Source of the DNA: Panopea generosa | Lineage: Eukaryota; Mollusca; Bivalvia; Adapedonta; Hiatellidae | Assembly: GCA_029582155.1 (NCBI GenBank) | Contig: CM055895.1 | Span: 52,605,250 to 52,669,249, forward strand | Direction of reading: 5' to 3' | DNA: 64,000 nt | In this document: positions 4,640 to 64,000 of the stretch, piece by piece | How positions within the stretch are numbered: position 1 is the first letter of the stretch | How the letters are laid out: each line of letters begins with the position of its first letter | Notes under the pieces: generated by a model | Told to the model about the DNA's origin: nothing | Database searches by the model: none | The model's input: the letters and a program-made list of their open reading frames with translations, nothing else | Program-made: the position numbers and the translations under genes

Positions 4640-5970
4640 CACAGACTCTTATACAAATAACTGGTGAATCCAACTAGAACCACCGCTCTTATACAAATAA
4701 CAGATGAATCCAAGTAGAACCACCGCTCTTATACAAATAACTGGTGAATCCAACTATAACCTAAGCTCTTATACAAATAACTGGTGAATCCAAGTAGAAC
4801 CAATGCTCTTATACAAATAACAGGTGAATCCAACTATAACCTAAGCTCTTATACAAATAACTGGTGAATCCAACTATAACCTAAGCTCTTATACAAATAA
4901 CTGGTGAATCCAAGAAGAACCTAAGCTCGTATACAAATAACTGGTGAATGCAAGTAGAACCTAAGCTCTTATACAAATAACTGGTGAATCCAACTAGAAC
5001 CTAAGCTCTTATACAAATAAAATGTGAATCCAAGTAGAACCTAAGCTCTAATACAAATAACTGGTGAAACCAACTAAAACCACCACTCTTATACAAATAA
5101 CTGGTGAATCCAACTAGAACCTAAGCTCTTATACAAATAACTGGTGAATCCAACCAGAAACTAAGCTCTTATACAAATAACAGGTGAATCCAACTAGAAC
5201 CTAAGCTCTTATACAAATAACAGGTGAATCCAACTAGAACCTAAGCTCTTATACAAATAACTGGTGAATGCAGGTAGAACCTAAGCTCTTATACAAATAA
5301 CTGGTGAATGCAAGTAGAACCTAAGCTCTTATACAAATAACAGGTGAATCCAACTAGAACCTAAGCTCTTATACAAATAACTGGTGAATCCAACCAGAAC
5401 CTAAGCTCTTATACAAATAACTGGTGAATCCAACCAGAACCTAAGCTCTTATACAAATAACTGGTGATCCAACTAGAACCACAGCTCTTATACAAATAAC
5501 TGGTGAATCCAAGTAAAACCTAAGCTCTTATACAAATAACAGGTGAATCCAACTAGAACCTAAGCTCTTATACAAATAACTGGTGAATCCAAGTAGAACC
5601 TAAGCTCTTATACAAATAACTGGTGAATCCAACTAGAACCTAAGCTCTTATACAAATAACTGTAGAATCCAACTAGAACCTAAGCTCTTATACAAATAAC
5701 AGGTGAATCCAACTAGAACCTAAGCTCTTGTACAAATAACTGGTGTATCCAACTAGAACCACAGCTTTTATACAAATAACTGGTGAATGCAAGAAGAACC
5801 TAAGCTTTTATACAAATAACTGGTGAATCCAACTTGAACCAACGCTTTTATACAAATAAATGGTGAATCCAACTTGAACCACAGCTCTTATACAAATAAC
5901 TGGTGAATCCAGCTAGAACCAACGCTTTTATACAAGTAATTGGTGAATCCAACAAGAACCGCTGCTCTTA
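4640..5970. repeat. Satellite, 40-bp unit, about 33 copies
   Basis: The repeating unit is ctcttatacaaataactgg, then tgaatccaactagaacctaag (split here for length). Early copies have aaccaccg in place of aacctaag. The unit aligns with the body of the minus-strand SINE at 49387-49425 (agtagaaccaccg, ttctt, aagtaactgg), so it looks like an amplified internal SINE segment. The array is cut at 5970 by a MITE and resumes at 6525. Confidence 0.9.
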
Positions 5971-7745: not shown

Positions 7746-9727
7746 GCTCAGCTGGTCTGTTTTACTACATCTTTCACCTTAAAGATCCCTTTACTTACTG
7801 ATCTAGCTGGGCTGTTTTAATACATTTCCCACCTAAAAGATCCCTCTACTTACTGATCTAACTGGGCTGTTTTAATACATTTCCCACCTAAAAGATCCCT
7901 CTACCAACTGATCTAGCTGGGCTATTTTAATACATTTCCCACCTAAAAGATCCCTCTACTTACTGATCTAGCTGGGCTGTTTTAATACATTTCCCACCTA
8001 AAAGATCCCTCTACTAACTCATCTAGCTGGGCTGTTTTAATACATTTCCCACCTAAAAGATCCCTCTACTAACTGATCTAGCTGGGCTGTTTTAATAAAT
8101 TTCCCACCTAAAAGATCCCTCTACTAACTGATCTAGCTGGGCTGTTTTAATACATTTCCCACCTAAAAGATCCCTCTACTTACTGATCTAGCTGGGCTGT
8201 TTTAATACATTTCCCACCTAAAAGATCCCTCTACTAACTCATCTAGCTGGGCTGTTTTAATACATTTCCCACCTAAAAGATCCCTCTACCAACTGATCTA
8301 GCTGGGCTGTTTTAATACATTTCCCACCTAAAAGATCCCTCTACCAACTGATCTAGCTGGGCTGTTTTAATACATTTCCCACCTAAAAGATCCCTCTACT
8401 TACTGATCTAGCTGGGTTGTTTTAATACATTTCCCACCTAAAAGATCCCTCGACCAACTGATATAGCTGGGCTGTTTAATACATTTCCCACCTTAAAGAT
8501 CTCTCTACCAACTGATATAGCTGGGCTGTTTAATAATTTCCCACCTAAAAGATCCCTCTACCAACTGATCTAGCTGGGCTGTTTTAATACATTTCCCACC
8601 TTAAAGATCTCTCTACCAACTGATCTAGCTGGGCTGTTTAATAATTTCCCACCTAAAAGATCCCTCTACCAACTGATCTAGCTGGGCTGTTTTATTACAT
8701 TTCCCACCTAAAAGATCCCTCTACTATCTGATCTAGCTGGGTTGTTTTAATACATTTCCGACCTAAAAGATCCCTAAATGATCTAGCTGCGCTGTTTTAT
8801 TACATTTCCCACCTAAAAGATCCCTCTACTATCTGATCTAGCTGGGTTGTTTTAATACATTTCTCACCTAAAAGATCCCTCTACTATCTGATCTAGCTGG
8901 GTTGTTTTAATACATTTCCCACCTAAAAGATCCCTAACTGATCTAGCTGCGCTGTTTTATTACATTTCCCACCTAAAAGATCCCTCTACCAACTGATCTA
9001 GCTGGGTTGTTTTAATACATTTCCCACCTAAAAGATCCCTCTACTATCTGATCTAGCTGGGTTGTTTTAATACATTTCCCACCTAAAAGATCCCTAACTG
9101 ATCTAGCTGCGCTGTTTTATTACATTTCCCACCTAAAAGATCCCTAACTGATCTAGCTGCGCTGTTTTATTACATTTCCCACCTAAAAGATCCCTCTACT
9201 ATCTGATCTAGCTGGGTTGTTTTAATACATTTCCCACCTAAAAGATCCCTCTACTATCTGATCTAGCTGGGTTGTTTTAATACATTTCCCACCTAAAAGA
9301 TCCGTAACTGATCTAGCTGCGCTGTTTTATTACATTTCCCACCTAAAAGATCCCTCTACCAACTGATCTAGCTGGGTTGTTTTAATACATTTCCCACCTA
9401 AAAGATCCCTCTACTATCTGATCTAGCTGGGTTGTTTTAATACATTTCCCACCTAAAAGATCCCACTACTATCTGATCTAGCTGCGCTGTTTTATTACAT
9501 TTCCCACCTAAAAGATCCCTAACTGATCTAGCTGCGCTGTTTTATTACATTTCCCACCTAAAAGATCCCTCTACTATCTGATCTAGCTGGGTTGTTTTAA
9601 TACATTTCCCACCTAAAAGATCCCTAACTGATCTAGCTGGGCTGTTTTTATAAATTTCCCACCTAAAAGATCCCTCTACCAACTGATCTAGCTGGGCTGT
9701 TTTAATACATTTCCCACCTAAAAGGAT
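7746..9727. repeat. Satellite, 55-bp unit, about 36 copies
   Basis: The unit is ctgatctagctgggctgtt, then ttaatacatttcccacct, then aaaagatccctctactaa; successive copies at 8101 and 8156 give a 55-bp period. From about 8770 rightward a shorter variant appears that lacks the ctactat segment and carries linked changes (gctgcgctg with ttttattac), interleaved with full units. The minus-strand open frame near 9545-9760 is repeat translation. Confidence 0.92.
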
Positions 9728-16522: not shown

Positions 16523-16712
16523 CTGAAATTAACATTATAATACACAAATTATTGATAATATAATACTGCCATGTATACAATGTGTCAGAATTAACTAATC
16601 GATCTGTCAAAATTTATCATAAGGAATAAATTTTCATTTTTTTAACGTTCACATTTTCATGAATGTTCATCAAAGGATATTCATTCCTTATATTTATATT
16701 ATTACTACACCT

Positions 16713-17455
16713 AGTCTATACCAGCTTGCTCTAAGACATGCCTACGTTGTGTTCACCCAGTCTCTACCAGCTTGCTCTACGTCATGCCTACGTTGTGTTC
16801 ACCCAGTCTATACCAGCTTGCTCAGTCATGCCTACGTTGTGTTCACCCAGTCTATACCAGCTTGCTCTACGTCATGCCTAGGTTGTGTTCACCCAGTCTA
16901 TACCAGCTTGCTCAAAGTCATGCCTTCGTTGTGTTCACCCAGTCTATACCTGCTTGCTCTACGTAATGCCTATGTTGTGTTCACCCAGTCTATACCAGCT
17001 TGCTCTACGTCATGCCTACGTTGTGTTCACCCAGTCTATACCAGCTTGCTCTACGTCAAGCCTTCGTTGTGTTCACCCAGTCTATACCAGCTTGCTCTAC
17101 GTCAAGCCTTCGTTGTGTTCACCCAGTCTATACCAGCTTGCTCTACGTCATGCCTACGTTGTGTTCACCCAGTCTATACCAGCTTGCTCTACGTCATGCC
17201 TACGTTGTGTTCACCCAGTCTATACCAGCTTGCTCAAAGTCATGCCTTCGTTGTGTTCACCCAGTCTATACCTGCTTGCTCTACGTAATGCCTACGTTGT
17301 GTTCACCCAGTCTATTGGAGTTTGCTCTAAGTCAAGCCTACGATGTGTTCACCCAGTCTATACCAGTTTGCTGTAAGTCATGCATATGTTGCATTCCCCC
17401 ATCTATACCAGCTTGCTCTAAGTCATGCCTACGTTGTCTTCCCCGATCTATAACA
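16713..17455. repeat. Satellite, 46-bp unit, about 16 copies, in ZNF598 intron 3
   Basis: The unit is tctataccagcttgctcta, cgtcatgcctacgttg, then tgttcacccag. Because 46 is not a multiple of three and the unit lacks stops on the plus strand in most copies, overlapping open frames of 160-209 codons appear; they are repeat artefacts antisense to the intron. Some units are shortened to ctcagtcatgcc. Confidence 0.92.
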
Positions 17456-27018: not shown

Positions 27019-27120
27019 ATGTCACAACCTCAAGCCTATGGGGCTGGAATGGCCGGTGGGGCTTTTAACCCTATAGAGTTCATCAAAAGACCACAAGTGA
27101 TATTGAGAATTGTCAGCTGG
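27019..27120 (+). CDS. SYNGR: Synaptogyrin coding exon 1 (residues 1-34)
   Basis: Synaptogyrins are four-pass MARVEL-domain proteins of synaptic and other small vesicles, involved in vesicle biogenesis and regulated exocytosis. This exon encodes MSQPQAYGAGMAGGAFNPIE, then FIKRPQVILRIVSW, matching the vertebrate N-terminus (AYGAGKAGGAFDPYTLVRQP, HTILRVVSW). The donor is TGG|GTATGT, phase 0. The cytosolic N-terminus leads straight into transmembrane segment 1. The paralogue number cannot be assigned. With the two exons below, 159 residues are covered; vertebrate members are around 220-235, so the fourth helix end and cytosolic tail are outside the window. Confidence 0.93.
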
Positions 27121-30030: not shown

Positions 30031-31254
30031 TGCAACATTGCTGTCATGGTTAATAATGCCTTCTGTACAGACTGGATTTAAGCACCATTGCTGCCATGGT
30101 TAATAATAATGCCTTCTGTACAGACTGGATTTAAGCAAAATAACTGCCATGGTTAAAAATGCTTTCTGTACAGACTGGATTTAAGCAACATTGCTGCCAT
30201 GGTTAATAATAATGCCTTCTGTACAGACTGGATTTAAGCAAAATTGCTGCCATGGTTAATAATGCTTTCTGTACAGACTGGATTTAAGCAACATTGCTGC
30301 CATGGTTAATAATAATGCCTTCTGTACAGACTGGATTTAAGCAAAATTGCTGCCATGGTTAATAATGCTTTCTGTACAGACTGGATTTAAGCAACATTGC
30401 TGCCATGGTTAATAATGCCTTCTGTACAGACTGGATTTAAGCAATATTGCTGCCATGGTTAATAATGCCTTCTGTACAGACTGGATTTAAGCAACATTGC
30501 TGCCATGGTTAATAATGCCTTCTGTACAGACTGGATTTAAGCAACATTGCTGCCATGGTTAATAATGCCTTCTGTACTGACTGGATTTAAGCAACATTGC
30601 TGCCATGGTTAATAATGCCTTCTGTGCAGACTGGATTAAGCAACATTGCTGCCATGGTTAATAATGCCTTCTGTACAGACTTGATTTAAGCAACATTGCT
30701 GTTATGGTTAATAATGCCTTCTGTGCAGACTGGATTAAGCAACATTGCTGCCATGGTTAATAATGCCTTCTGTACAGACTGGATTTAAGCAACATTGCTG
30801 CCATGGTTAATAATGCCTTCTGTGCAGACTGGATTAAGCAACATTGCTGCCATGGTTAATAATGCCTTCTGTACAGACTGGATTTAAGCAACATTGCTGC
30901 CATGGTTAATAATGCCTTCTGTGCAGACTGGATTAAGCAACATTGCTGCCATGGTTAATAATGCCTTCTGTACAGACTGGATTTAAGCAACATTGCTGCC
31001 ATGGTTAATAATGCCTTCTGTACAGACTGGATTCAAGCAACATTGCTGCCATGGTTAATAATGCCTTCTGTGCAGACTGGATTAAGTAACATTGCTGCCA
31101 TGGTTAATAATGCCTTCTGTGCAGACTGGATTAATCAACATTGCTGCCATGGTTAATAATGCCTTCTGTGCAGACTGGATTAAGCAACATTGCTGCCATG
31201 GTTAATAATGCCTTCTGTACAGACTGGATTTAAGCAGCATTGCTGCCATGGTTA

Positions 31255-31560
31255 ATGAAATAATACTTTCTGTGCAGAATGGATAAGTAAGTAACATTGC
31301 TGCCAAGGTTAATAATAGTTTAGTTTAAACCTATTTTTTTACTTCCATTGTGGAACAAGTTCTTACAACTTAGGCAAATCACGCTTAAAGTATTCTTGGG
31401 TATAACCAGTACTTATCATATGCGGTGAAAATGTCTTGCTCAAGGACATCACACATAGCCTTAGTGGAGGATCAAACCCATGACCCTCTGATCATGGGTT
31501 TGGTGCTCTACTACTGGACCACATGCTCCACACATAATAAAGCCTTCTGTGCAGACTGGA
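31255..31560. repeat. Non-satellite cassette inside the array, copy B
   Basis: Duplicate of 29725-30030 at a constant offset of 1530 with only a few substitutions (for example acgg to atgg near the start, and cacttaaag to cgcttaaag). The pair shows that a block of satellite plus cassette was duplicated together recently. Confidence 0.85.
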
Positions 31561-34500
31561 TTTAAGCAAAATTGCTGCCATGGTTAATAATGCCTTCTGT
31601 GCAGACTGGATTCAGCAACATTGCTGCCATGGTTAATAATGCCTTCTGTACAGACTGGATTTAAGCAAAATTGCTGCCATGATTGATAATGCCTTCTGTA
31701 CAGACTGGATTTAAGCAACATTGCTGCCATGGTTAATAATGCCTTCTGTACAGACTGGATTTAAGCAACATTGCTGCCATGGTTAATAATACTTTCTGTA
31801 CAGACTGGATTTAAGCAACATTGCTGCAATGGTTAATAATGCCTTCTGAACAGACTGGATTTAAGCAACATTGCTGCAATGGTTTATAATAATGCATTCT
31901 GTACAGACTGGATTTAAGCAGCATAGCTGCCATGGTTAATAATGCCTTCTGTGCAGACTGGATTAAGCAACATTGCTGCCATGGTTAATAATGCCTTCTG
32001 TACAGACTGGATTTAAGCAACATTGCTGTGATGGTTAATAAAAATGCCTTCTGTACAGACTGGATTTAAGCAACATTGCTGCAATGGTTAATAATGCCTT
32101 CTGAACAGACTGGATTTAAGCAACATTGCTGCAATGGTTTATAATAATGCATTCTGTACAGACTGGATTTAAGCAGCATAGCTGCCATGGTTAATAATGC
32201 CTTCTGTGCAGACTGGATTAAGCAACATTGCTGCCATGGTTAATAATGCCTTCTGTACAGACTGGATTTAAGCAACATTGCTGTGATGGTTAATAAAAAT
32301 GCCTTCTGTACAGACTGGATTTAAGCAACATTGCTGCCATGGTTAATAATGCCTTCTGTGCTGACTGGATTAAGCAACATTGCTGCCATGGTTAATAATG
32401 CCTTCTGTACAAACTGGATTTAAGCAACATTGCTGCCATGGTTAATAATGCCTTCTGTGCAGACTGGATTAAGCAACATTGCTGCCATGGTTAATAATGC
32501 CTTCTGTGTAGACTGGATTAAGCAACATTGCTGCCATGGTTAATAATGCCTTCTGTACAGACTGGATTTAAGCAACATTGCTGCAATGGTTTATAATAAT
32601 GCCTTCTGTACAGACTGGATTTAAGCAAAATTGCTGCCATGGTTAATAATGCCTTCTGTGCAGACTGGATTTAAGCAAAATTGCTGCCATGGTTAATAAT
32701 GCCTTCTGTGCAGACTGGATTAAGCAACATTGCTGCCATGGTTAATAATGCCTTCTGTGCAGACTGGATTAAGCAACATTGCTGCCATGGTTAATAATGC
32801 CTTCTGTACATACTTGATTTAAGCAACATTGCTGCCATGGTTAATAATGCCTTCTGTGCAGACTGGATTAAGCAACATTGCTGCCATGGTTAATAATGCC
32901 TTCTGTGCAGACTATATTAAGCAACATTGCTGCCATGGTTAATAATGCCTTCTGTACAGACTTGATTTAAGCAACATTGCTGCAATGGTTTATAATAATG
33001 CCTTCTGTACAGACTGGATTTAAGAAAAATTGCTGCCATGGTTAATAATGCCTTCTGTGCAGACTGGATTAAGCAACATTGCTGCCATGGTTAATAATGC
33101 CTTCTGTACAGACTGGATTTAAGCAACATTGCTGTGATGGTTAATAAAAATGCCTTCTGTACAGACTGGATTTAAGCAACATTGCTGCCATGGTTAATAA
33201 TGCCTTCTGTGCAGACTGGATTAAGCAACATTGCTGCCATGGTTAATAATGCCTTCTGTACAAACTGGATTTAAGCAACATTGCTGCCATGGTTAATAAT
33301 GCCTTCTGTGCAGACTGGATTAAGCAACATTGCTGCCATGGTTAATAATGCCTTCTGTATAGACTGGATTAAGCAACATTGCTGCCATGGTTAATAATGC
33401 CTTCTGTACAGACTGGATTTAAGCAACATTGCTGCAATGGTTTATAATAATGCCTTCTGTACAGACTGGATTTAAGCAAAATTGCTGCCATGGTTAATAA
33501 TGCCTTCTGTGCAGACTGGATTAAGCAACATTGCTGCCATGGTTAATAATGCCTTCTGTGCAGACTGGATTAAGCAACATTGCTGCCATGGTTAATAATG
33601 CCTTCTATACATACTTGATTTAAGCAACATTGCTGCCATGGTTAATAATGCCTTCTGTGCAGACTGGATTAAGCAACATTGCTGCCATGGTTAATAATGC
33701 CTTCTGTGCAGACTATATTAAGCAACATTGCTGCCATGGTTAATAATGCCTTCTGTACAGACTTGATTTAAGCAACATTGCTGCAATGGTTTATAATAAT
33801 GCCTTCTGTACAGACTGGATTTAAGAAAAATTGCTGCCATGGTTAATAATGCCTTTTGTGCAGACTGGATTAAGCAACATTGCTGCCATGGTTAATAATG
33901 CCTTCTGTACAGACTGGATTTAAGCAACATTGCTGTGATGGTTAATAAAAATGCCTTCTGTACAGACTGGATTTAAGCAACATTGCTGCCATGGTTAATA
34001 ATGCCTTCTGTGCAGACTGGATTAAGCAACATTGCTGCCATGGTTAATAATGCCTTCTGTACAAACTGGATTTAAGCAACATTGCTGCCATGGTTAATAA
34101 TGCCTTCTGTGCAGACTGGATTAAGCAACATTGCTGCCATGGTTAATAATGCCTTCTGTGTAGACTGGATTAAGCAACATTGCTGCCATGGTTAATAATG
34201 CCTTCTGTACAGACTGGATTTAAGCAACATTGCTGCAATGGTTTATAATAATGCCTTCTGTACAGACTGGATTTAAGCAAAATTGCTGCCATGGTTAATA
34301 ATGCCTTCTGTGCAGACTGGATTAAGCAACATTGCTGCCATGGTTAATAATGCCTTCTGTGCAGACTGGATTAAGCAACATTGCTGCCATGGTTAATAAT
34401 GCCTTCTGTACATACTTGATTTAAGCAACATTGCTGCCATGGTTAATAATGCCTTCTGTGCAGACTGGATTAAGCAACATTGCTGCCATGGTTAATAATG

Positions 34501-36455
34501 CCTTCTGTGCAGACTGGATTAAGCAACATTGCTGCCATGGTTAATTATGCCTTCTGTACATACTTGATTTAAGCAACCTTGCTGCCATGGTTAATAATGC
34601 CTTCTGTGCAGACTGGATTAAGCAACATTGCTGCCATGGTTAATAATGCCTTCTGTGCAGACTGGATTAAGCAACATTGCTGTGATGGTTAATAATAATG
34701 TATTCTGTACAGACTGGATTTAAGTAAAATTGCTGCCATGGTTAATAATAATGCCTTCTGTACAGATTGGATTAAGCAACATTGCTGCCATGGTTAATAA
34801 TAATGCCTTCTGTGCAGACTGGATTAAGCAACATTGCTGCCATGGTTAATAATGCCTTCTGTACAGACTGGATTTAAGCAACATTGCCGCAATGGTTTAT
34901 AATAATGCCTTCTGTACAGACTGGATTTAAGCAAAATTGCTGCCATGGTTAATAATATTGCCTTCTGTACAGACTGGATTTAAGCAACATTGCTGCCATG
35001 GTTAATAATACCTTCGGTACAGACTAGATTTAAGTAAAATTGCTGCCATGGTTAATAATACCTTCTGTACAGACTGGATTTATACAACATTGTTGCCATG
35101 GTTAATAATGTCTTCTATACAGACTGGATTTAAGCAACATCGCTGCCATGGTTAATAATGCCTTCTGTACTGATTGGATTTAAGCAATTTTGCTGCCATG
35201 GTTAATAATGCCTTCTGTACAGACTGGATTTAAGCAACATTGCTGCCATGGTTAATAATGCCTTCTGTGCAGACTGGATTAAGCAACATTGCTGCCATGG
35301 TTAATAATGCCTTCTGTACATACTTGATTTAAGCAACCTTGCTGCCATGGTTAATAATGCCTTCTGTGCAGACTGGATTAAGCAACATTGCTGCCATGGT
35401 TAATAATGCCTTCTGTGCAGACTGGATTAAGCAACATTGCTGCCATGGTTAATAATGCCTTCTGTACAAACTGGATTTAAGCAACATTGCTGCCATGGTT
35501 AATAATGCCTTCTGTACAGACTGGATTTAAGCAGCATTGCTGCCATGGTTAATAATGCCTTCTGTGCAGACTGGATTAAGCAACATTGCTGTGATGGTTA
35601 ATAATAATGTATTCTGTACAGACTGGATTTAAGTAAAATTGCTGCCATGGTTAATAATAATGCCTTCTGTACAGATTGGATTAAGCAACATTGCTGCCAT
35701 GGTTAATAATAATGCCTTCTGTGCAGACTGGATTAAGCAACATTGCTGCCATGGTTAATAATGCCTTCTGTACAGACTGGATTTAAGCAACATTGCTGCA
35801 ATGGTTTATAATAATGCCTTCTGTACAGACTGGATTTAAGCAAAATTGCTGCCATGGTTAATAATATTGCCTTCTGTACAGACTGGATTTAAGCAACATT
35901 GCTGCCATGGTTAATAATACCTTCGGTACAGACTAGATTTAAGTAAAATTGCTGCCATGGTTAATAATACCTTCTGTACAGACTGGATTTATGCAACATT
36001 GTTGCCATGGTTAATAATGTCTTCTATACAGACTGGATTTAAGCAACATCGCTGCCATGGTTAATAATGCCTTCTGTACTGACTGGATTTAAGCAATTTT
36101 GCTGCCATGGTTAATAATGCCTTCTGTACAGACTGGATTTAAGCAACATCGCTGCCATGGTTAATAATGCCTTCTGTACTGACTGGATTTAAGCAATTTT
36201 GCTGCCATGGTTAATAATGCCTTCTGTACAGACTGGATTTAAGCAACATTGTTGCCATGGTTAATAATGCCTTCTGTACAGACTGGATTTAAGCAACATT
36301 GCTGCCATGGTTAATAATGCCTTCTGTACAGATTGAATTTAAGCAACATTGCTGCCATGGTTAAGTATGCTTTTTGTACAGACTGGATTTAAGCAACATT
36401 GCTGCAATGTTAATGATGCAAAAAATTTCATCCAGACTGGAAAAGCAAAATCACT

Positions 36456-37444: not shown

Positions 37445-37664
37445 GTATTTGCCATAATAGTGTTCTCGTGCATATCAGCTGGAGGGTATTATGACCATTA
37501 CTGTCAGATGCGGGGCGACAGCAATGCCTGTGGCTATGGCATTGGCATCGGGGTGTTGGCGTTCCTCTTCTGTATAGCATTTTTAATTCTTGATGTTATG
37601 TTCGATAGCTTGAGCAGCGTTCAACATAGAAAATATGCCGTACTTGCAGACTTAGGTATTTCAG
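37445..37664 (+). CDS. SYNGR: Synaptogyrin coding exon 2 (residues 35-108)
   Basis: Acceptor TTGCAG comes before GTA, and donor GTGAGT follows TCAG; phase 0 in, 1 out. It encodes VFAIIVFSCISAGGYYDH, the end of helix 1 and the start of the luminal loop; then CQMRGDSNACGYG, the conserved loop (human CIYNRNPNACSYG); then helix 2 (GVLAFLFCIAFLILDVMF); then the cytosolic loop SVQHRKYAVLADLGIS. Residues NAC-YG and the KYAVLADLG loop are family hallmarks. Confidence 0.95.
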
Positions 37665-40917: not shown

Positions 40918-43900
40918 TCTGTAGTATAAATGATGCATGACAAGATCTGTGTGGTGTTCTAGGGCTTCATGTACTACTGTAGTATAAGTGATCCATGACA
41001 AGATCTTTTTGGTGTTTTAGGGCTTCATGTACTTCTGTAGTATAAGTGATCCATGACAAAATCTTTGTGGTGTTCTAGGGCTTCATGTACTTCTGTAGTA
41101 TAAGTGATCCATGGCAAGATCTTTGTGGTGTTCTAGGGTTTCATGTACTTCTGTAGTATTAGTGATGCATGGCAAGATATTTGTGGTGTTCTAGGGACTC
41201 ATGTACTACTGTAGTATAAGTGATGCATGGCAAGATATTTGTGGTGTTCTAGGGACTCATGTACTGCTGTAGTATAAGTGATGCATGGCAAGATATTTGT
41301 GTTGTTCTAGGGACTCATGTACTACTGCAGTATAAGTGACCCATCGCAAGATCTTTGTGGTGTTCTAGGGCTTCATGTACTTCTGCAGTATAAGTGATCC
41401 ATGGCAAGATCTTTGTGGTGTTCTAGGGCTTCATGTACTTCTGTAGTATAAAGTGATCCATGGCAAGATATTTGAAGTGTTTTAGGGCTTCATGTACTAC
41501 TGCAGTATAAGTGATCCATGGCAAGATCTTTGTGGTGTTCTAGGGCTTCATGTACTATTGTAGTATAAGTGATGCATGGCAAAATCTTTGTGGTGTCCTA
41601 GGGCTTCATGTACTTCTGTAGTATAAGTGATGCATGGCAAGATATTTGTGGTGTTCTAGGGCTTCATGTACTTCTGTAGTATAAGTGATGCATGGCAAGA
41701 TATTTGTGGTGTTCTAGGGCTTCATATACTACTGTAGTATAAGTGATGCATGGCAAGATATTTGTGGTGTTCTAGAGCTTCATGTACTACTGCAGTATAA
41801 GTGATCCATGGCAAGATCTTTGTGGTGTTCTAGGGCTTCATGTACTACTGTAGTATAAGTGATGCATGGCAAGATCTTTGTGGTGTTCTAGGGCTTCATG
41901 TACTACTGTAGTATAAGTGATGCATGGCAAGATATTTGTGGTGTTCTAGGGCTTCATGTACTTCTGTAGTATAAGTGATGCATGGCAAGATATTTGTGGT
42001 GTTCTAGGGCTTCATGTACTACTGTAGTATAAGTGATGCATGGCAAGATCTTTGTGGTGTTCTAGGGCTTCATGTACTTCTTTAGTATAAGTTATCCATG
42101 GCAAGATCTTTGTGGTGTTCTATGGCTTCATGTACTTCTGTAGTATAAGTTATCCATGGCAAGATCTTTGTTGTGTTTTAGGACTTTGTGTACTTCTGTA
42201 GTTTAAGTTATCCATGGCAAGATATTTGTGGTGTTCTAGGGCTTCATGTACTTCTGTAGTATAAGTGATCCATGGCAAGATCTTTGTTGTGTTTTAGGGC
42301 TTGATGTACTTCTGTAGTATAAGTTATCCATGGCAAGATCTTTATGGTGTTCTAGGGCTTCATGTACTCCTGTAGTATAAGTGATCCACGGCAAGATATT
42401 TGTGGTGTTCTAGGGCTTCATGTACTTCTGTAGTATAAGTTATCCATGGCAAGATCTGTGTGGTGTTCTAGGGCTTCATGTACTTTTGTAGTATAAGTGA
42501 TCCATGGCAAGATATTTGTGGTGTTATAGGGCTTCATGTACTTCTGTAGTATAAGTGATCGATGGCAAGATATTTGTGGTGTTTTATGGCTTCATGTACT
42601 TCTGTAGTATAAGTGATCCATGGCAAGATCTTTGTGGTGTTTTATGGCTTCATTTACTTCTGTAGTATAAGTGAGTGGTGTTCTAGGGCTTCATGTACTT
42701 CTGTAGTTTAAGTTATCCATGGCAAGATCTGTGTTGTGTTCTAGGGACTCATGTACTTCTGTAGTATAAGTGATCCATGGCACGATCTTTCTGGTGTTCT
42801 AGGGCTTCATGTGCTTCTGTAGTATAAGTGATATATGGCAAGATCTGTATAGTGTTTTAGGGCTTCATGTACTTCTGTAGTATAAGTGATGCATGGCAAG
42901 ATCTATGTGGTGTTCTAGGGACTCATGTTCTTCTGTAGTATAAGTGATCCATGGCAAGATCTTTCTGGTGTTTTAGGGCTTCATGTGCTTCTGTAGTATA
43001 AGTGATCCATGTCGAGATCTGTGTGGTGTTCCAGGGCTTCATGTACTACTGTAGTATAAGTGATCCATGGCAAGATATTTGTGGTGTTATAGGGCTTCAT
43101 GTACTTCTGTAGTATAAGTGATCCATGGCAAGATATTTGTGGTGTTTTATGGCTTCATGTACTTCTGTAGTATAAGTGATCCATGGCAAGATCTTTGTGG
43201 TGTTTTATGGCTTCATGTACTTCTGTAGTATAAGTGAGTGGTGTTTTATGGCTTCATGTACTTTTGTAGTATAAGTGAGTGGTATTCTAGGGCTTCATGT
43301 GCTTCTGTAGTATAAGTGAGTGGTGTTCTAGGGCTTCATGTACTTCTGTAGTATAAGTGATGCATGGCAAGATTTGGGTGGTGTTCTAGGGACTCATGTT
43401 CTTCTGTAGTATAAGTGATCCATGGCAAGATCTTTCTGGTGTTTTAGGGCTTCATGTGCTTCTGTAGTATAAGTGATCCATGTCAAGATCTGTGTGGTGT
43501 TCCAGAGCTTCATGTACTACTGTAGTATAAGTGATGCATGGCAAAATATGTGTGGTGTTCTAGGGACTCATGTACTACTGTAGTATAAGTGATCTATGGT
43601 AAGATCTGTGTGGTGTTCTAGGGACTCATGTACTTCTGTAGTATAAGTGATCCATGGCAAGATATTTCTGGTGTTTTAGGGCTTCATGTACTTCTGTAGT
43701 ATAAGTGATCCATGGCAAGATCTGTGTGGTGTTCTAGGGCTTCATGTACTACTGTAGTATAAGTGATCCATGGCACAATATGTGTGGTGTTCTAGGGACT
43801 CATGTACTTCTGTAGTATAAGTGATCCATGGCAAGATCTGTGTGGTGTTCTAGGGCTTCATGTACTTCTGTAGTATAAGTGATCCATAGCAAGATCTGTG

Positions 43901-45892
43901 TGGTGTTCTAGGGCTTCATGTACTACTGCAGTATGAGTGATGCATGACAAGATCTTTGTGGTGTTCAATGGCTTCATGTACTACTGTAGTTTAAGTGATG
44001 CATGGCAAGATATTTGTGGTGTTTAGGGACTCATGTACTTCTGTAGTATAAGTTATCCATGGCAAGATATTTGTGGTGTTTTAGGGCTTCATGTACTACT
44101 GCAGTATAAGTGATCCATGACAAGATCTTTGTGGTAATCAAGGGCTTCATGTACTTCTGTAGTATAAGTGATGCATGTCAAGATCTGTGTGGTGTTCTAG
44201 GGACTCATGTACTTCTGTAGTATAAGTTATCCATGGCGAAATGTTTGTGGTAACTTAGGGACTCATGTACTTCTGTAGTATAAGTGATCCATGGCAAGAT
44301 CTGTGTGGTGTTCTAGGGCTTCATGTACTCTTGTAGTAGAAGTTATCCATGGCAAGATCTTTGTGGTGTTTTAGGGCTTCATGTACCTCGTAGTAGAAGT
44401 AATCCATGGCAAGATATTTGTGGTGTTCTAGGGCTTCATGTACTACTGTAGTATAAGTGATCCATGGCAAGATCTTTGTGGTGTTCTAGGGCTTCATGTA
44501 CTTCTGTAGTATAAGTGATCCGTGGCAAGATCTTTATGGTGTTCTAGGGACTCATGTACTTCTGTAGTATAAGTGATGCATGACAAGATCTTTGTGGTGT
44601 TCTAGGGCTTCATGTACTTCTGTAGTATAAGTAATCCATGGCAAGATATTTGTGGTGTTCTAGGGACTCATGTACTTCTGTAGTATAAGTGATGCATGAC
44701 AAGATCTTTGTGGTGTTCTAGGGCTTCATGTACTTCTGTAGTATAAATGATCCATGGCAAGATCTTTGTGGTGTTTTAGGGTTTCATGTACTTCTGTAGT
44801 ATAAGTGATGCATGGCTAGATCTTTGTGGTGTTCTAGGGCTTCATGTACTTCTGTAGTATAAGTTATCCATGACAAATCTTTGTTGTGTTTTAGGGCTTC
44901 ATGTACTTCTGTAGTATAAGTTATCCATGGCAAGATATTTGTGGTGTTCTAGGGACTCATGTACTTCTGTAGTATAAGTGACGCATGACAAGATCTTTGT
45001 GGTGTTCTAGGGCATCATGTACTTCTGTAGTATAAGTGATCCATGGCAAGATATTTGAGGTGTTTAGGGCTTCATGTACTACTGTAGTATAAATGATGCA
45101 TGGCAAGATCTTTGTGGTGTTTTAGGGCTTCATGTACTACTGTAGTATAAGTGATCCATGTCAAGATCTTTGTGGTGTTCTAGGGCTTCATGTACTTCTG
45201 TAGTATAAGTGATGCATGGCAAGATCTTTGTGGTGTTTTAGGGCTTCATGTACTACTGTAGTATAAGTGATGCATGGCAAGATCTTTGTGGTGTTCTAGG
45301 GCTTCATGTACTTCTGTAGAAGAAGTTATCCATGGCAAGATCTTTGTGGTGTTTTAGGGCTTCATGTACTTATATAGTATAAGTGATCCATGTCAAGATA
45401 TTTGTGGTGTTCTAGGGCTTCATGTACTACTGTAGTATAAGTGAACTATGGCAAGATCTTTGTGGTGTTCCAGGGCTTCATGTACTTCTGTAGTATAAGT
45501 GATCCATGGCAAGATCTGTGTGGTGATTTAGGGCTTCATGTACTTCTGTAGTATAAGTGATGCATGGCAAGATCTTTGTGGTGTTCTAGGGCTTCATGTA
45601 CTACTGTAGTATAAGTGATCTATGGCAAGATCTTTGTGGTGTTCCAGGGCTTCATGTACTTCTGTAGTATAAGTGATCCATGGCAAGATCTGTGTGGTGA
45701 TTTAGGGCTTCATGTACTTCTGTAGTATAAGTGATGCATGGCAAGATCTTTGTGGTGTTCTAGGGCTTCATGTACTAATGTAATATAAGTGACCCATCGC
45801 AAAATCTGTATGGTGTTCTAGGGACTCATGTACTTCTGTAGTATAAGTGATCCATGTGTAGTATAAGTAATGAATGGCAAGATCTGTGTAGC
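40918..45892. repeat. 5-kb satellite, 58-bp unit, about 85 copies, synaptogyrin intron 2
   Basis: The unit is tacttctgtagtataagtga, then tccatggcaagatctttg, then tggtgttctagggcttcatg; successive copies at 45541 and 45599 give 58 bp. Many units carry tactactgtagta, a short palindrome. A few units are shortened (gtgagtggtgtt, deleting the gatccatggcaag part) around 42670 and 43230-43320. Confidence 0.95.
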
Positions 45893-47378: not shown

Positions 47379-48760
47379 TACTCATGTTCACACATATAAT
47401 CATTCTTCATGCATATAATATGTCCTTTACTCATGTTCACACATATAATCATTCTTCATGCATTTGTCCTCTACTCATATTCAACCATATAATCATTCTT
47501 CATGCATTTGTCCTCTACTCATGTTCACACATATAACCATTCTTCATGCATTTGTCCTCTACTCATGTTCACACATATAACCATTATTCATGCATTTGTC
47601 CTCTACTCATGTTCACACATATAATCATTCTATATGCATATAATATGTCCTTTACTTATGTTCACACATAAAATCATTCTTCATGCATTTGTCCTCTACT
47701 CATGTTCACACATATAACCATTCTTCATGCATTTGTCCTCCTCTACTCATGTGCACACATATAATCATTCTTCATGCATTTGTCCTCTACTCATGTTCAC
47801 ACATATAATCATTCTTCATGCATTTGTCCTCTACTCATGTTCACACATATAACCATTCTTCATGCGTTTGTCCTCTACTCATGTTCACACATATAATCAT
47901 TCTTCATGCATTTGTCCTCTACTCATGTTCACACATATAATCATTCTTCATGTATATAATATGTCCTTTACTCATGTTCACACATATAACCATTATTCAT
48001 GCATTTGTCCTCTACTCATATTCAACCATATAATCATTCTTCATGCATTTGTCCTCTACTCATGTTCACACATATAACCATTCTTCATGCATTTGTCCTC
48101 TACTCATGTGCACACATATAACCATTCTTCATGCATTTGTCCTCTACTCATGTTCACACATATAATCATTCTTCATGCATTTGTCCTTTACTCATGTGCA
48201 CACATATAACCATTCTTCATGCATTTGTCCCTTACTCATGTTCACACATATAATCATTCTTCATGCATTTGTCCTCTACTCATGTTCACACATATAACCA
48301 TTCTTCATGCATTTGTCCTCTACTCATGTTCACACATATAATCATTCTTCATGCATTTGTCCTCTACTCATGTTCACACATATAATCATTCTTCATGCAT
48401 TTGTCCTTTACTCATGTTCATACATATAACCATTCTTCATGCATTTGTCCTCTACTCATTTTCACACATAAAACCATTTTTTCATGCATTTGTCCTCTAC
48501 TCATGTTCACACATATAATCATTTTTTCATGCATTTGTCCTCTACTCATGTTCACACATATAATCATTCTTCATGCATTTGTCCTCTACTCATGTTCACA
48601 CATATAACCATTCTTCATGCATTTGTCCTCTACTCATGTTCACACATATAACCATTCTTCATGCATTTGTCCTCTACTCATGTTCACACATATAACCATT
48701 CTTCATGCATTTGTCCTCTACTCATGTTCACACATATAACCATTCTTCATGCATATATAT
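47379..48760. repeat. Satellite, 44-bp unit, about 31 copies
   Basis: The unit is tcatgttcacacatataatc, attcttcatgcatttgtcct, then ctac. Some units carry the longer catataatatgtccttt variant (47410, 47635, 47955). Plus-strand open frames across it are repeat translation. Confidence 0.93.
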
Positions 48761-60104: not shown

Positions 60105-62460
60105 TTATGACATGTGTAACAATGTAGTTCTGATGATTTTTATGACAGGTGTAACAATGCACTGTGACAGGTGTAACAAGGTAGTATAACAGGTGTAACA
60201 ATGCACTGTGACAGGTGTAACTATGTAGTATGACAAGTGTAACAATGTAGTATTACAGGTGTAACAATGTAGTATGACAGGTGTAACAATGTAGTATGAG
60301 AGATGTAACAATGTAGTTCTGATGAATATTATGACAGGTGTAACAGTGCACTGTGACAGGTGTAACAATTTAGTTCTATTGAATATTATGACAGATGTGA
60401 AAATGTAGTGTGACAGGTGTGACAGTGTAGTATGACAGGTGTAAAAATGTAGTGTGTGACAGGTGTAACAATTTAGTGTGACAGGTGTAAAAATGTAGTG
60501 TGACAGGTGTAACAATGTAGTGTGACAGGTGTAACAATGTAGTATGACAGGAGTAACAATGTAGTATGACAGTTGTAACAATGTAGTGTGACAGGTGTAA
60601 CAATGTAGTATGACGGGTGTAACAATGTAGTGTGACAGGTGTAACAATGTAATTCTGATGAATATTATGACGGGTGTAACGATGCACTGTGATTGGTTTA
60701 ACAATGCACTGTGACAGGTGTAACAATTTAGTACTTTGGAATATTATGACAGATGTAAAATGTAGTGTGACAGGTGTGACAGTGTAGTATGACAGGTGTA
60801 AAAATCTAGTATGACAGGTGTAACAATGTAGTAGTACAGGTGTAACAATGTAGTTCTGTTGAATATTATGACAGATGTAAAAATGTAGTGTGACAGGTGT
60901 AACAATGTAGTATGACAGTTGTTACAATGTAGTATGACAGGTGTAACAATGTAGTGTGACAGGTGTAACAATGTAGTATTACAGGTGTAACAATGTAGTT
61001 CTGTTGAATATTATGACAGATGTAAAAATGTAGTGTGACAGGTGTAACAATGTGGTATGACAGTTGTTACAATGTAGTATGACAGGTGTAACAATGTAGT
61101 GTGACAGGTGTAACAATGTAATTCTGATTAATATTATGACAGGTGTAACAATGTACTAAGAAAGGTGTAACAATGCACTGTGACAGGTGTAACAATTTAG
61201 TTCTATTGAATATTATGACATGTAAAAATGTAGTGTGACAGGTGTGAAAATGTAGTGTGACAGGTGTAACAATGTAGTATGACAGGTGTAACAATGTAGT
61301 CTGACAGGTGTAACAATGTAGAACGACAAGTGTAACTATGTAGAATGACAGGTGTAACAATGCAGTACGACAGGTGTAACAATGTAGTTCTGAGAAATAT
61401 TATGACAGGTGAAACAATGTAGTATGACAGGTGTAACAATGTACTATGAAAGGTGTAACAATGCACTGTGACAGGTGTAACAATTTAGTTCTATTGAATA
61501 TTATGACGTGTAAAAATGTAGTGTGACAGGTGTGAAAATGAAGTGTGACAGGTGTAACAATGTAGTATGACAGGTGTAACAATGTAGTGTGACAGGTGTA
61601 ACAATGTAGTATGACAAGTGTAACTATGTAGAATGACAGGTGTAACAATGCAGTATGACAGGTGTAACAATGTAGTTCTGAGAAATATTATGACAGGTGT
61701 AACAATGTAGTATGACAGGTGTACCAATGTAGTATGACAGGTGTAACAACGTAGTTCTGATGAATATTATGACAGGTATAACAATGTACATGTAGTTCTG
61801 GTTAATATTATGACCGGTGTAACAATGTAGTTCTGGTCCATATTATGACAGGTGTAATAGTGTAGTTCTGATTAATGTTATGACAGGTGTAACAGTGTAG
61901 ATCTGGTGAATATTATGACAGGTGTAACAATGTATTTCTGATGAGTATTATGCCTACAATCCAGTTCTGATACAGGTGTTACAATGTTGTTCTACTATCA
62001 AGTTCTGATACAGTGTAGCAATGTAGTTCTGATGAATATTATGCCAGATTATGTCCTGATACAGGTGTAACAATGTAGTTCTATTATCAAGTTCTGATAC
62101 AGGTGTAACAATGGAGTTCTGATGAATATTATGTCAGATTAAGTCCTAATACAGGTGTAACAATGTAGTTCTACTATCAAGTTCTGATACAGGTGTAACA
62201 ATGTAGTTCTGATGAATATTATGCCAGATTAATTCCTGATACAGGTGTAACAATGTAGTTCTGATGAATATTATGCCAGATTAAGTCCTGATACAGGTGT
62301 AACAATGGAGTTCTGCTATCAAGTTCTGATACAGGTGTAACAATGGAGTTCTGCTATCAAGTTTTATTACAGTTGTAACAATGTAGTTCTGTTGAATATT
62401 AAACCTGCTATCAAGTTCTGGTGCAGGTTGAATAGTCCATGTAGTTAGTTGAATATTATG
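60105..62460. repeat. Satellite, 22-bp unit, about 100 copies
   Basis: The unit is aacaatgtagtatgacag followed by gtgt. Longer spacer units (ttctgatgaatattatgaca) are mixed in and dominate after about 61760, where composite units of 60-90 bp recur (atgccagattaagtcctgat, then acaggtgtaacaatg). Minus-strand open frames of up to 199 codons are artefacts of the stop-free repeat. Confidence 0.93.
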
Positions 62461-62768
62461 GTTGCAATCAAGATATGTTGCTGTTGAGTGTCTTACCCAC
62501 AATTTCTAAAGTTTGAAGATGTAAAATACTACATGTTTGATTATTGGTCTGGACTTTCTGCTTTCTAAGTTTTTGGCAGCCAACATGCCATCTTGTTCTC
62601 TTGCCATATTATTTGGAGATTTGTCATTGGTTAACTCACTACCACAGAGGAGAAAACAATTGCAGACAGCAGATTATGGTTTTCCATGTGTCTGTCACAT
62701 GTTCTGGTTTGGTTAACACATAGTGAAGTAAACAATTACAGGTGTTGTGATATTGCCAGGTGTTTGTC

Positions 62769-63006
62769 ACATATTCAGCTTTATGGTTTGTCACATATTG
62801 AGGTCATGTTCTATTTCCTGTTTCAGCTTTATAGACATTCCTATGGTTTGTCACATATTCAGGCCATGTTCTGTTTCCTGTTTCAGCTTTATAGACATTC
62901 CTATGGTTTGTCACATATTCAGGCCATGTTCTGTTTCCTGTTTCAGCTTTATAGACATTCCTATGGTTTGTCACATATTCAGGCTGTGTTCTGTTTTCTG
63001 TTTCAG
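62769..63006 (+). repeat. 60-bp tandem repeat ending in the synaptogyrin exon 3 splice acceptor
   Basis: Units start tttcagctttatagacattc, then ctatggtttgtcacatattc, then aggccatgttctgtttcctg. They begin at 62821, 62881 and 62941 with exactly 60-bp spacing, and the true acceptor tttcag is at 63001. A partial, shorter unit lies at 62769-62820. Each unit copies the polypyrimidine tract, the AG and the first 25 exon bases. Confidence 0.95.
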
Positions 63007-63161
63007 CTTTATGGACATTCCTATGGTTTGTTGGCTTCTGCTACATGACAGATGCTTGGAGACGGAGAGGAGAATTCCCTGATGCCATTGCACCGGATGC
63101 ACGTGGAAGAGACAATGTACAGGCCGCAATAGCATTCTCTTTCTTCTCCATTATCTCATGG
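63007..63161 (+). CDS. SYNGR: Synaptogyrin coding exon 3 (residues 108-159)
   Basis: The acceptor is ttctgtttcag and the donor TCATGG|GTATGT. With the G from exon 2 it reads ALWTFLWFVGFCYMTDAW (helix 3), then RRRGEFPDAIAPDARGRDN (luminal loop), then VQAAIAFSFFSIISW (start of helix 4). This matches the vertebrate FWAFLWFVGFCYLANQW and AAIAFSFFSIFTW. Phase 1 in, 0 out. The next exon, with the end of helix 4 and the tyrosine-rich tail, lies outside. Confidence 0.95.
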
Positions 63162-64000
63162 GTATGTTTCAAATTTATTTTTAAGCTTGACTATTCTATG
63201 AATAGGTAAGCTTTTATAATCACCTGTTTGTCAGACACATGTGTCTGGTTTGTAACATCTGCTCAATAACACAACACAATGTTCCTTATCACAAGACCTT
63301 GCATGGGATTAAAGGGGTTGACCACGAACCTGCGATATATATGTTTTCATTGACATCCATTTGTGTACACAATTACCTATAATGCAATGCGCGCACCCCA
63401 AAACCGCCATTTTGGCTCCATAGAAAAACAGTTGCTGATAAACGCGGTCTACATAAAGTAGAATAACAATTGTTTGATTTGTGTATTGCAAACACTTGCG
63501 TGATAATATAATAGTAAATATCAGGAGAAGTTTGGAGATTTGTGTAAAATCTAACAAATAAAACTTTTTTTAGGAAAAAGAGATTTTTGTCTCTTAATGT
63601 TAACCTTACTCATTCAGTAGGTGTGAATATCGTCAGTAATTGAAACAATTTAGTTTACAACAACAAGTTTATGTGCATATCAGCAAATCTATGGATTAAC
63701 TTTAATAGTTAATTGATTGTTGTAACACAAATCCATCAGTGTGTTTCTGCATGGCTTCAAACTAGCTTGAACGGTGTCAGCAATTACCATTTATTATCAT
63801 TTACATAAACTTGTATAATTATACTACAATCAAAGAGGAGATAACATTTGATTCTTTTATTAAATTTTATATTTCTTTTTTTTATATTTTAATTAAAAAA
63901 TAATATGGTTATCAGGTAGGTGAACACTCATCCCGTGCTTGCGTTTGTGCTCACCAATTGCTCATTTTTTTAAAACTAAAATGTACAGAAAAAGTATTTC
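63162..64000. other. Start of synaptogyrin intron 3
   Basis: It opens GTATGT and has no further exon up to the window edge. AT-rich, no repeat array seen. Confidence 0.5.

Follow-up and report, generated by a model that had tools for sequence, protein, structure and literature searches.

In lancelets, "mirage" minisatellites have been described, in which a short unit repeated in tandem straddles the boundary of intron and exon, so that the splice site is copied along with it. According to the available parts of the principal report, both acceptors and donors are affected, the units measure 10-72 bp in Adh3 and 150-160 bp in the globin genes BflGb6 and BflGb9, inner units are homogenised while edge units are not, and haplotypes with 6 and with 3 units exist (PMC3087553). 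RT-PCR of the globin transcripts, together with the Adh3 data, suggested no interference with splicing, and a model of intron gain from mirages was presented in the same paper (PMC3087553). A second report, as far as its available text goes, describes for PGBD5 a 60-bp repeat present 2 or 7 times and a 108-bp repeat present 3 or 6 times over splice sites, depending on the assembly; the mirages of Adh and TnC are cited there as producing no aberrant mRNAs, and normal splicing of PGBD5 itself was inferred by the authors without mRNA across the repeats (PMC3902484). A search of the open-licence literature, made by a name that was tied to amphioxus, returned no mirages outside lancelets.

The window analysed here, a stretch of 64,000 nucleotides from the bivalve Panopea generosa, holds an array of this kind at the border of intron 2 and exon 3 of a synaptogyrin gene. 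Judged from its sequence, the array is a "mirage" minisatellite, with all the defining traits that are accessible at this level. As in lancelets, short tandem repeats of similar unit length span an intron-exon boundary with copies of the splice site; the array is local and not dispersed; the inner units are alike and the edge units divergent, in an array of only four units; and both acceptors and donors are hit, here by way of five other arrays of the same genome (L042, L054, L037, L055 and L103). The genes differ from those of lancelets, the host is a mollusc, and all full synaptogyrin decoys carry an in-frame stop that results from one base change.

Other systems share parts of this arrangement. 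As with NMD-coupled poison alternative 3' splice sites, splicing to an alternative acceptor in synaptogyrin would introduce an early stop codon far ahead of the final exon junction; use, regulation and conservation, however, belong to the known systems, and the decoys are known from sequence alone. The duplicated 3' splice sites of beta-globin (after Reed and Maniatis, as related in the available part of PMC5389562) also consist of a full acceptor copied with a short piece of exon, whereas the synaptogyrin array is natural, has three extra full copies and lies in a long intron. Splice signals are likewise copied in tandem within a gene when introns are gained by internal tandem duplication (PMC2891723, available part), but no new intron is evident in synaptogyrin, where the GTs are weak in comparison with the true donors.

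The synaptogyrin gene and its array

All features of the gene and of its array lie on the + strand. The coding part of exon 1 (27019-27120; 102 bp), which ends at a GT donor, and exon 2 (37445-37664; 220 bp), with the donor CAG/GTGAGT in phase 1, were identified by tblastn using a human SYNGR1 query, by a protein search of the animal's own genome and by the gene model. Intron 2 (37665-63006) is 25.3 kb long and rich in minisatellites by TRF. Exon 3 (63007-63161; 155 bp) encodes the third transmembrane helix, as numbered in the earlier note, by its MARVEL match and its alignment to 8a6m; it is followed by an intron of 1.03 kb and by exon 4, placed by the gene model at 64196-64405, outside the window. 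The joined exons encode a protein of 228 residues in which the Pfam MARVEL domain covers the full profile (E 1.3e-26), and its sole match among solved structures at E<=0.01 is human synaptogyrin-1 (8a6m, E 6.6e-50). Searched against the genome, this protein gave four matches at E<=1, which are the four exons; the gene is single-copy, and no retrocopy exposing the splice junction was seen among these matches. Transcripts that skip the 155 nt of exon 3 would be frameshifted. Pfam gave no match for four other open frames of the window. Two near-identical copies of an exon which we take, by eye, to be synaptophysin-like lie 0.6 Mb apart on one contig (L016, G000:C10:7139838-7143005; L017, G000:C10:6539617-6542784), and inspection by eye of this paralogous exon found a single acceptor.

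Four 60-bp units (62782-63021) abut exon 3 in such a way that the last contains the true acceptor; TRF reports the array at 62782-63031 with a period of 60, 4.2 copies and a score of 451. The best score among 500 Markov resamples of window positions 62401-64000 was 62, and chance resemblance as the source of the array is thus ruled out. The array before exon 3 that the earlier note had described is therefore real. Within each unit, 35 bp resemble intron 2 and the other 25 bp resemble exon 3. Unit A (62782-62841), unit B (62842-62901) and unit C (62902-62961), defined by TRF and unit alignment, are decoy acceptors with exon-like starts at 62827, 62887 and 62947, respectively; unit D (62962-63021) holds the true acceptor, the exon start at 63007 and the first 15 exon bases. 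In A, B and C a CAG is followed by the first 25 bases of the exon with a single mismatch, which replaces TGG by TAG. The length of shared exon sequence that had been noted before is thus right, with one mismatch, the TAG/TGG base itself, lying within it. Once the G from exon 2 is added, the decoys read GCT-TTA-TAG and the true exon GCT-TTA-TGG; the TAGs occupy 62832-62834, 62892-62894 and 62952-62954, and the TGG 63012-63014. The discriminating base falls at 62833, 62893, 62953 and 63013, precisely where it had been reported, and the tryptophan is conserved, as was also claimed: human synaptogyrin-1 has the same residue (SALWTFLWFVGFCY vs SAFWAFLWFVGFCY in the 8a6m alignment).

Further parts of the inventory needed amendment. 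The three decoys exist, but the positions first given for them (62821, 62881 and 62941) mark the first t of "tttcag" and not the exon-like starts. Also overlooked, beside the three full copies, was a partial fifth acceptor upstream: a degenerate remnant (62762-62781) includes a weak acceptor-like site, CAG/CTTTATGG, with an exon-like start at 62779. Reading from this start keeps the TGG and then meets a stop at a TGA inside unit A; this TGA lies upstream of unit A's own acceptor and is in frame solely for a start at 62779. Lastly, the base that makes each TAG also creates a new AG 8 nt downstream of the decoy acceptor, with exon-like starts at 62835, 62895 and 62955. NAGNAG-type tandem acceptors are competing acceptors 3 nt apart; the decoys lie 60 nt from one another and the TAG-made AGs 8 nt from the decoy acceptors, so the array is not of that type.

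The units align without gaps and differ at 3 positions between A and B, 4 between B and D, 7 between A and D and none between B and C. As 3 and 4 sum to 7, the distances are additive along the series A, B/C, D, and the identity of B with C indicates either recent growth or homogenisation in part of the array. That identity also favours an error of assembly in the number of units, and one published lancelet mirage was, according to the available text, aberrantly assembled in a draft genome; A, B/C and D differ, however, so at least three distinct units are real, and they reside in a chromosome-scale contig of 100 Mb. We find an artefact of copy number barely credible.

The sequence of the unit is confined to this locus. 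As a DNA query, it had one match in the whole genome (1.47 Gb, 39 contigs), at synaptogyrin, and with up to 3 mismatches allowed there were seven matches, four of them local and three elsewhere at 3 mismatches, against 16 for a control pattern; a dispersed repeat is thereby ruled out. At the four other exon borders of synaptogyrin in the window the best copy of a 60-mer matched at 27-29 of 60 positions, vs 52/60 for exon 3.

The decoys as splice sites

Splice sites were scored with generic matrices that approximate those of mammals. By these, the decoy acceptors score 10.1, 10.9 and 10.9, the true acceptor 10.6 and the acceptors of exons 2 and 4 score 9.0 and 12.3. Intron 2 and exon 3 together contain 1395 AGs, among which the decoys rank 8, 3 and 2 and the true site 5; by the same matrix the TAG-created AGs rank 27-29 and the remnant at 62779 ranks 212. 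The true site and the three full decoys also score above all 24 of the 24 myosin acceptors placed within 12 nt of the start of their match. Each unit has a pyrimidine tract and CAG, and a branch-point-like TGTCAC is found approximately 34 nt upstream of all four acceptors. Core signals, then, do not set the decoys apart from the genuine acceptor. The distinction lies in context, the genuine one being closest to the exon 3 donor and alone in running directly into an exon stretch longer than 25 nt. The decoys are unlikely to serve as cassette micro-exons, because their potential donors are weak: the GT repeated in each unit scores 2.12, and a GT in unit A reaches 3.63, vs 6.22-13.26 for the true donors.

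Related cases suggest how such competition might be settled. In human genes, long flanking introns reduce the preference for the upstream of competing 3' splice sites and favour the one closest across the exon; overall, upstream sites are still preferred in the available account (PMC9225289), and intron 3 of synaptogyrin is 1.03 kb. Where beta-globin acceptors were duplicated such that the upstream copy was followed by an exon piece of 14, 55 or 205 nt, the distal site alone was spliced, and inefficiently (PMC5389562, available part). Taken with the lancelet data, these observations would favour the true site, and the decoys would receive little more than occasional leakage. We infer that the acceptor at 63006/63007 should dominate, since no other lies so close to the exon 3 donor, over an exon of normal size, and since it is alone in having more than 25 nt of exon after it.

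Simultaneous occupancy of two duplicated acceptors was found in the same study to inhibit splicing in vitro (PMC5389562), from which one might suppose that the synaptogyrin acceptors bind U2AF and U2 together and so slow removal of the 25-kb intron. The evidence for such a brake comes from in vitro globin substrates only, and the lancelet globin haplotypes of 6 and 3 units appear from RT-PCR to be spliced regularly (PMC3087553, available part); we regard it as very improbable.

The consequences of decoy use can be read from the frame. The 60-nt spacing retains it, as the earlier note had stated and as both the unit alignment and the gene model bear out, and use of a decoy would lengthen exon 3 to 335, 275 or 215 nt and end translation after 109 residues. 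The decoy TAGs lie 327, 267 and 207 nt before the exon 3-4 junction. In mammals, NMD is as a rule triggered by stops that precede the final exon junction by more than 50-55 nt. The distance exceeds 200 nt for every decoy, so any leaked product would be eligible for NMD and would likely undergo it.

These properties would also suit regulated unproductive splicing, in which a set fraction of transcripts would be spliced to the decoys and sent to decay by the TAG, thereby fixing the level of synaptogyrin. The decoy scores match that of the true site, each decoy has its own branch-point-like sequence, the frame is kept and the stop falls 207-327 nt before the junction. For other genes, NMD exons are reported to control the levels of synaptic proteins, but in the available part of the same paper Syngr3 itself is under control of its 3' UTR (PMC3552424). 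Also against regulation, the stop is most simply a single inherited change with a chance of 23-24%, B and C are identical, such arrays are common in the genome, and their lancelet counterparts seem not to disturb splicing. Tuning of synaptogyrin level by this route, one of two outcomes entertained in the earlier note, is unsupported, and we judge it quite improbable. The other outcome, that the array is simply tolerated, is preferred on the strength of arrays at 5 of 98 other borders, the lancelet reports on splicing and a stop expected by chance about one time in four.

Origin of the array and of its stop codon

Tandem duplication across the intron-exon border, as proposed in the earlier note, is supported by the ungapped 60-bp units and by a 6-bp microhomology, GTTTGT, present on the intron side at 62762-62767 and on the exon side at 63026-63031. 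In this process the last part of intron 2 would have been duplicated together with the first part of exon 3. Slippage or end-joining at GTTTGT was probably the initial event, after which the array would have been amplified and partly homogenised. The upstream units each keep a branch-point-like sequence, a pyrimidine tract and AG.

The frame through units B, C and D is otherwise open, and a stop results from 4 of the 60 possible transitions, or 13 of the 180 possible changes; the chance of at least one in-frame stop from four transitions is 24%, and a mixed simulation gave 23%. The three TAGs are most simply explained as one change before amplification, not three events. The TAG may thus have arisen once, in a copy free of coding constraint, and then been carried along.

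The TAG could alternatively have been favoured as a fail-safe, turning what would be an insertion of 20 residues per unit into a transmembrane helix into a destroyed mRNA wherever decoys leak at a low level. In its absence this frame would run open through units B to D, it is present in 3 of 3 full decoys, and NMD is described as able to shelter the imperfect splicing of new introns (PMC2809761 and PMC2891723, available parts). Set against this, the TAG appears as a single event not rarer than chance, and the copies at L054, which have the same 60-nt in-frame period, meet stops too, within their intron-derived part, so that stops in decoys are ordinary. A protective role for the stop is accordingly unlikely.

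With regard to selection on the units themselves, no signal was detected, with little power to detect one. Only one of the seven inferred changes falls in the 25 exon-derived bases (P(<=1) = 0.14), which leaves room for some constraint on these bases and counts to that extent against neutrality. So too does the strength of the decoys, which are not weak at ranks 2, 3 and 8 vs 5 of 1395 for the true site and have a TGTCAC each. Nonetheless, we consider it highly probable that the array is a largely neutral mirage minisatellite made by slippage, with the true acceptor taking most of the splicing and leakage to the decoys eligible for NMD.

Arrays over other exon borders

Exon borders elsewhere in the genome were sampled from myosin and kinesin genes, and were assigned by a script using the generic matrices, some surely wrongly. 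The myosin sample comprised 30 exon loci, with acceptor candidates at 29 and donor candidates at all 30; that of kinesin comprised the 20 strongest of 118 matches, leaving out a near-duplicate (C3:4500416) and a stop-bearing match (C13:19211558), with 19 acceptor and 20 donor candidates. Five of these 98 borders, 2 of 48 acceptors and 3 of 50 donors, lie by TRF inside minisatellites that repeat the splice site.

Four of the five are in myosin genes, at 2 of 29 acceptors and 2 of 30 donors, and their units repeat the splice site with some exon bases. The array at L042, over the acceptor of a non-muscle-type myosin II exon, has a period of 44 with decoys at -44, -85, -129 and -173, and that at L054, over the acceptor of a class I-type exon, has a period of 60 with two decoys in 60-nt steps (...CAG/GTTTGCTAT), the CAG of one copy occurring as ACAG and of the others as GCAG. 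The best copy of the acceptor matches at 49/60 positions in L042 and 46/60 in L054, compared to 56/60 in synaptogyrin, and only these two of the 29 myosin acceptors have copies. At the donor of a myosin VIIa-type exon (L037), AAAG/GTRAGT is repeated with a period of 41, and at that of a class I-type exon (L055) the period is 34. The kinesin half, taken alone, weighs against a neutral origin for the synaptogyrin array, with 0/19 acceptors and 1/20 donors in arrays; at the one donor (L103), the splice site is repeated at each of ten 43-bp steps.

Outside the matches, arrays occupy 6.9% of the 30 myosin loci, near the 5/98 found for borders. The borders thus show no clear avoidance of arrays, which fits tolerance of them by splicing; the synaptogyrin array would have arisen in a genome in which arrays over splice sites are common.

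Two other long arrays come close to a border. At the myosin locus L051, read in reverse, the array reaches 1493 and the exon begins at 1501; at the kinesin locus L071 the array reaches 443 and the exon begins at 451. Both arrays thus end in the pyrimidine tract about 8 nt before the exon. The window itself has 34.9% of its length in arrays of period >=10, vs 10.7% for a set of 13 other stretches that total 100 kb, of which the flanks supply 70 kb. Its large arrays, with units of 40-58 bp, lie at 30032-36419, 40918-45856, 7750-9724, 47379-48754, 4646-5960 and 16708-17452. A minisatellite of approximately 22 bp (TGACAGGTGTAACAATGTAG; 60141-62401) ends about 360 bp before the exon 3 array, and many of its units hold CAG/GTGTAA, which is weakly like a 5' splice site. 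In the same genome, 169 matches to protein tyrosine phosphatase stretches were obtained on contigs C1, C3, C5, C14 and C19, with many of those listed clustered, in what looks like a large family expansion. A muscle-type myosin exon matched molluscan chains at 153-157 bits (scallop 1dfk, 1dfl, 1b7t, 1kk7 and 1qvi, squid 3i5f, and 2ec6 and 2os8), ahead of 3jbh at 133 bits and human-type Myosin-7 at 128, as expected for a mollusc; five other myosin exons searched in the same way belong to other classes and are uninformative on this point. COX1 gave no match at E 1e-5.

The synaptogyrin array extends mirage minisatellites from lancelets to a mollusc, and the sample suggests that in P. generosa several per cent of all exon borders may lie within mirages. 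If mirages stand genome-wide at about one in twenty exon borders, some could act as countable dampers, the TAG decoys of synaptogyrin diverting transcripts such that the number of units sets the level of protein; we would give this little credence. In any event, such arrays would provide a natural experiment on the choice of splice sites, with near-identical acceptors and donors at fixed steps, some of them marked by stops, whose use standard RNA-seq could reveal. Exclusive choice of the true copies would mean that context decides and not the core signals; if decoys are used, the number of units would be a heritable dial on the output of the gene.
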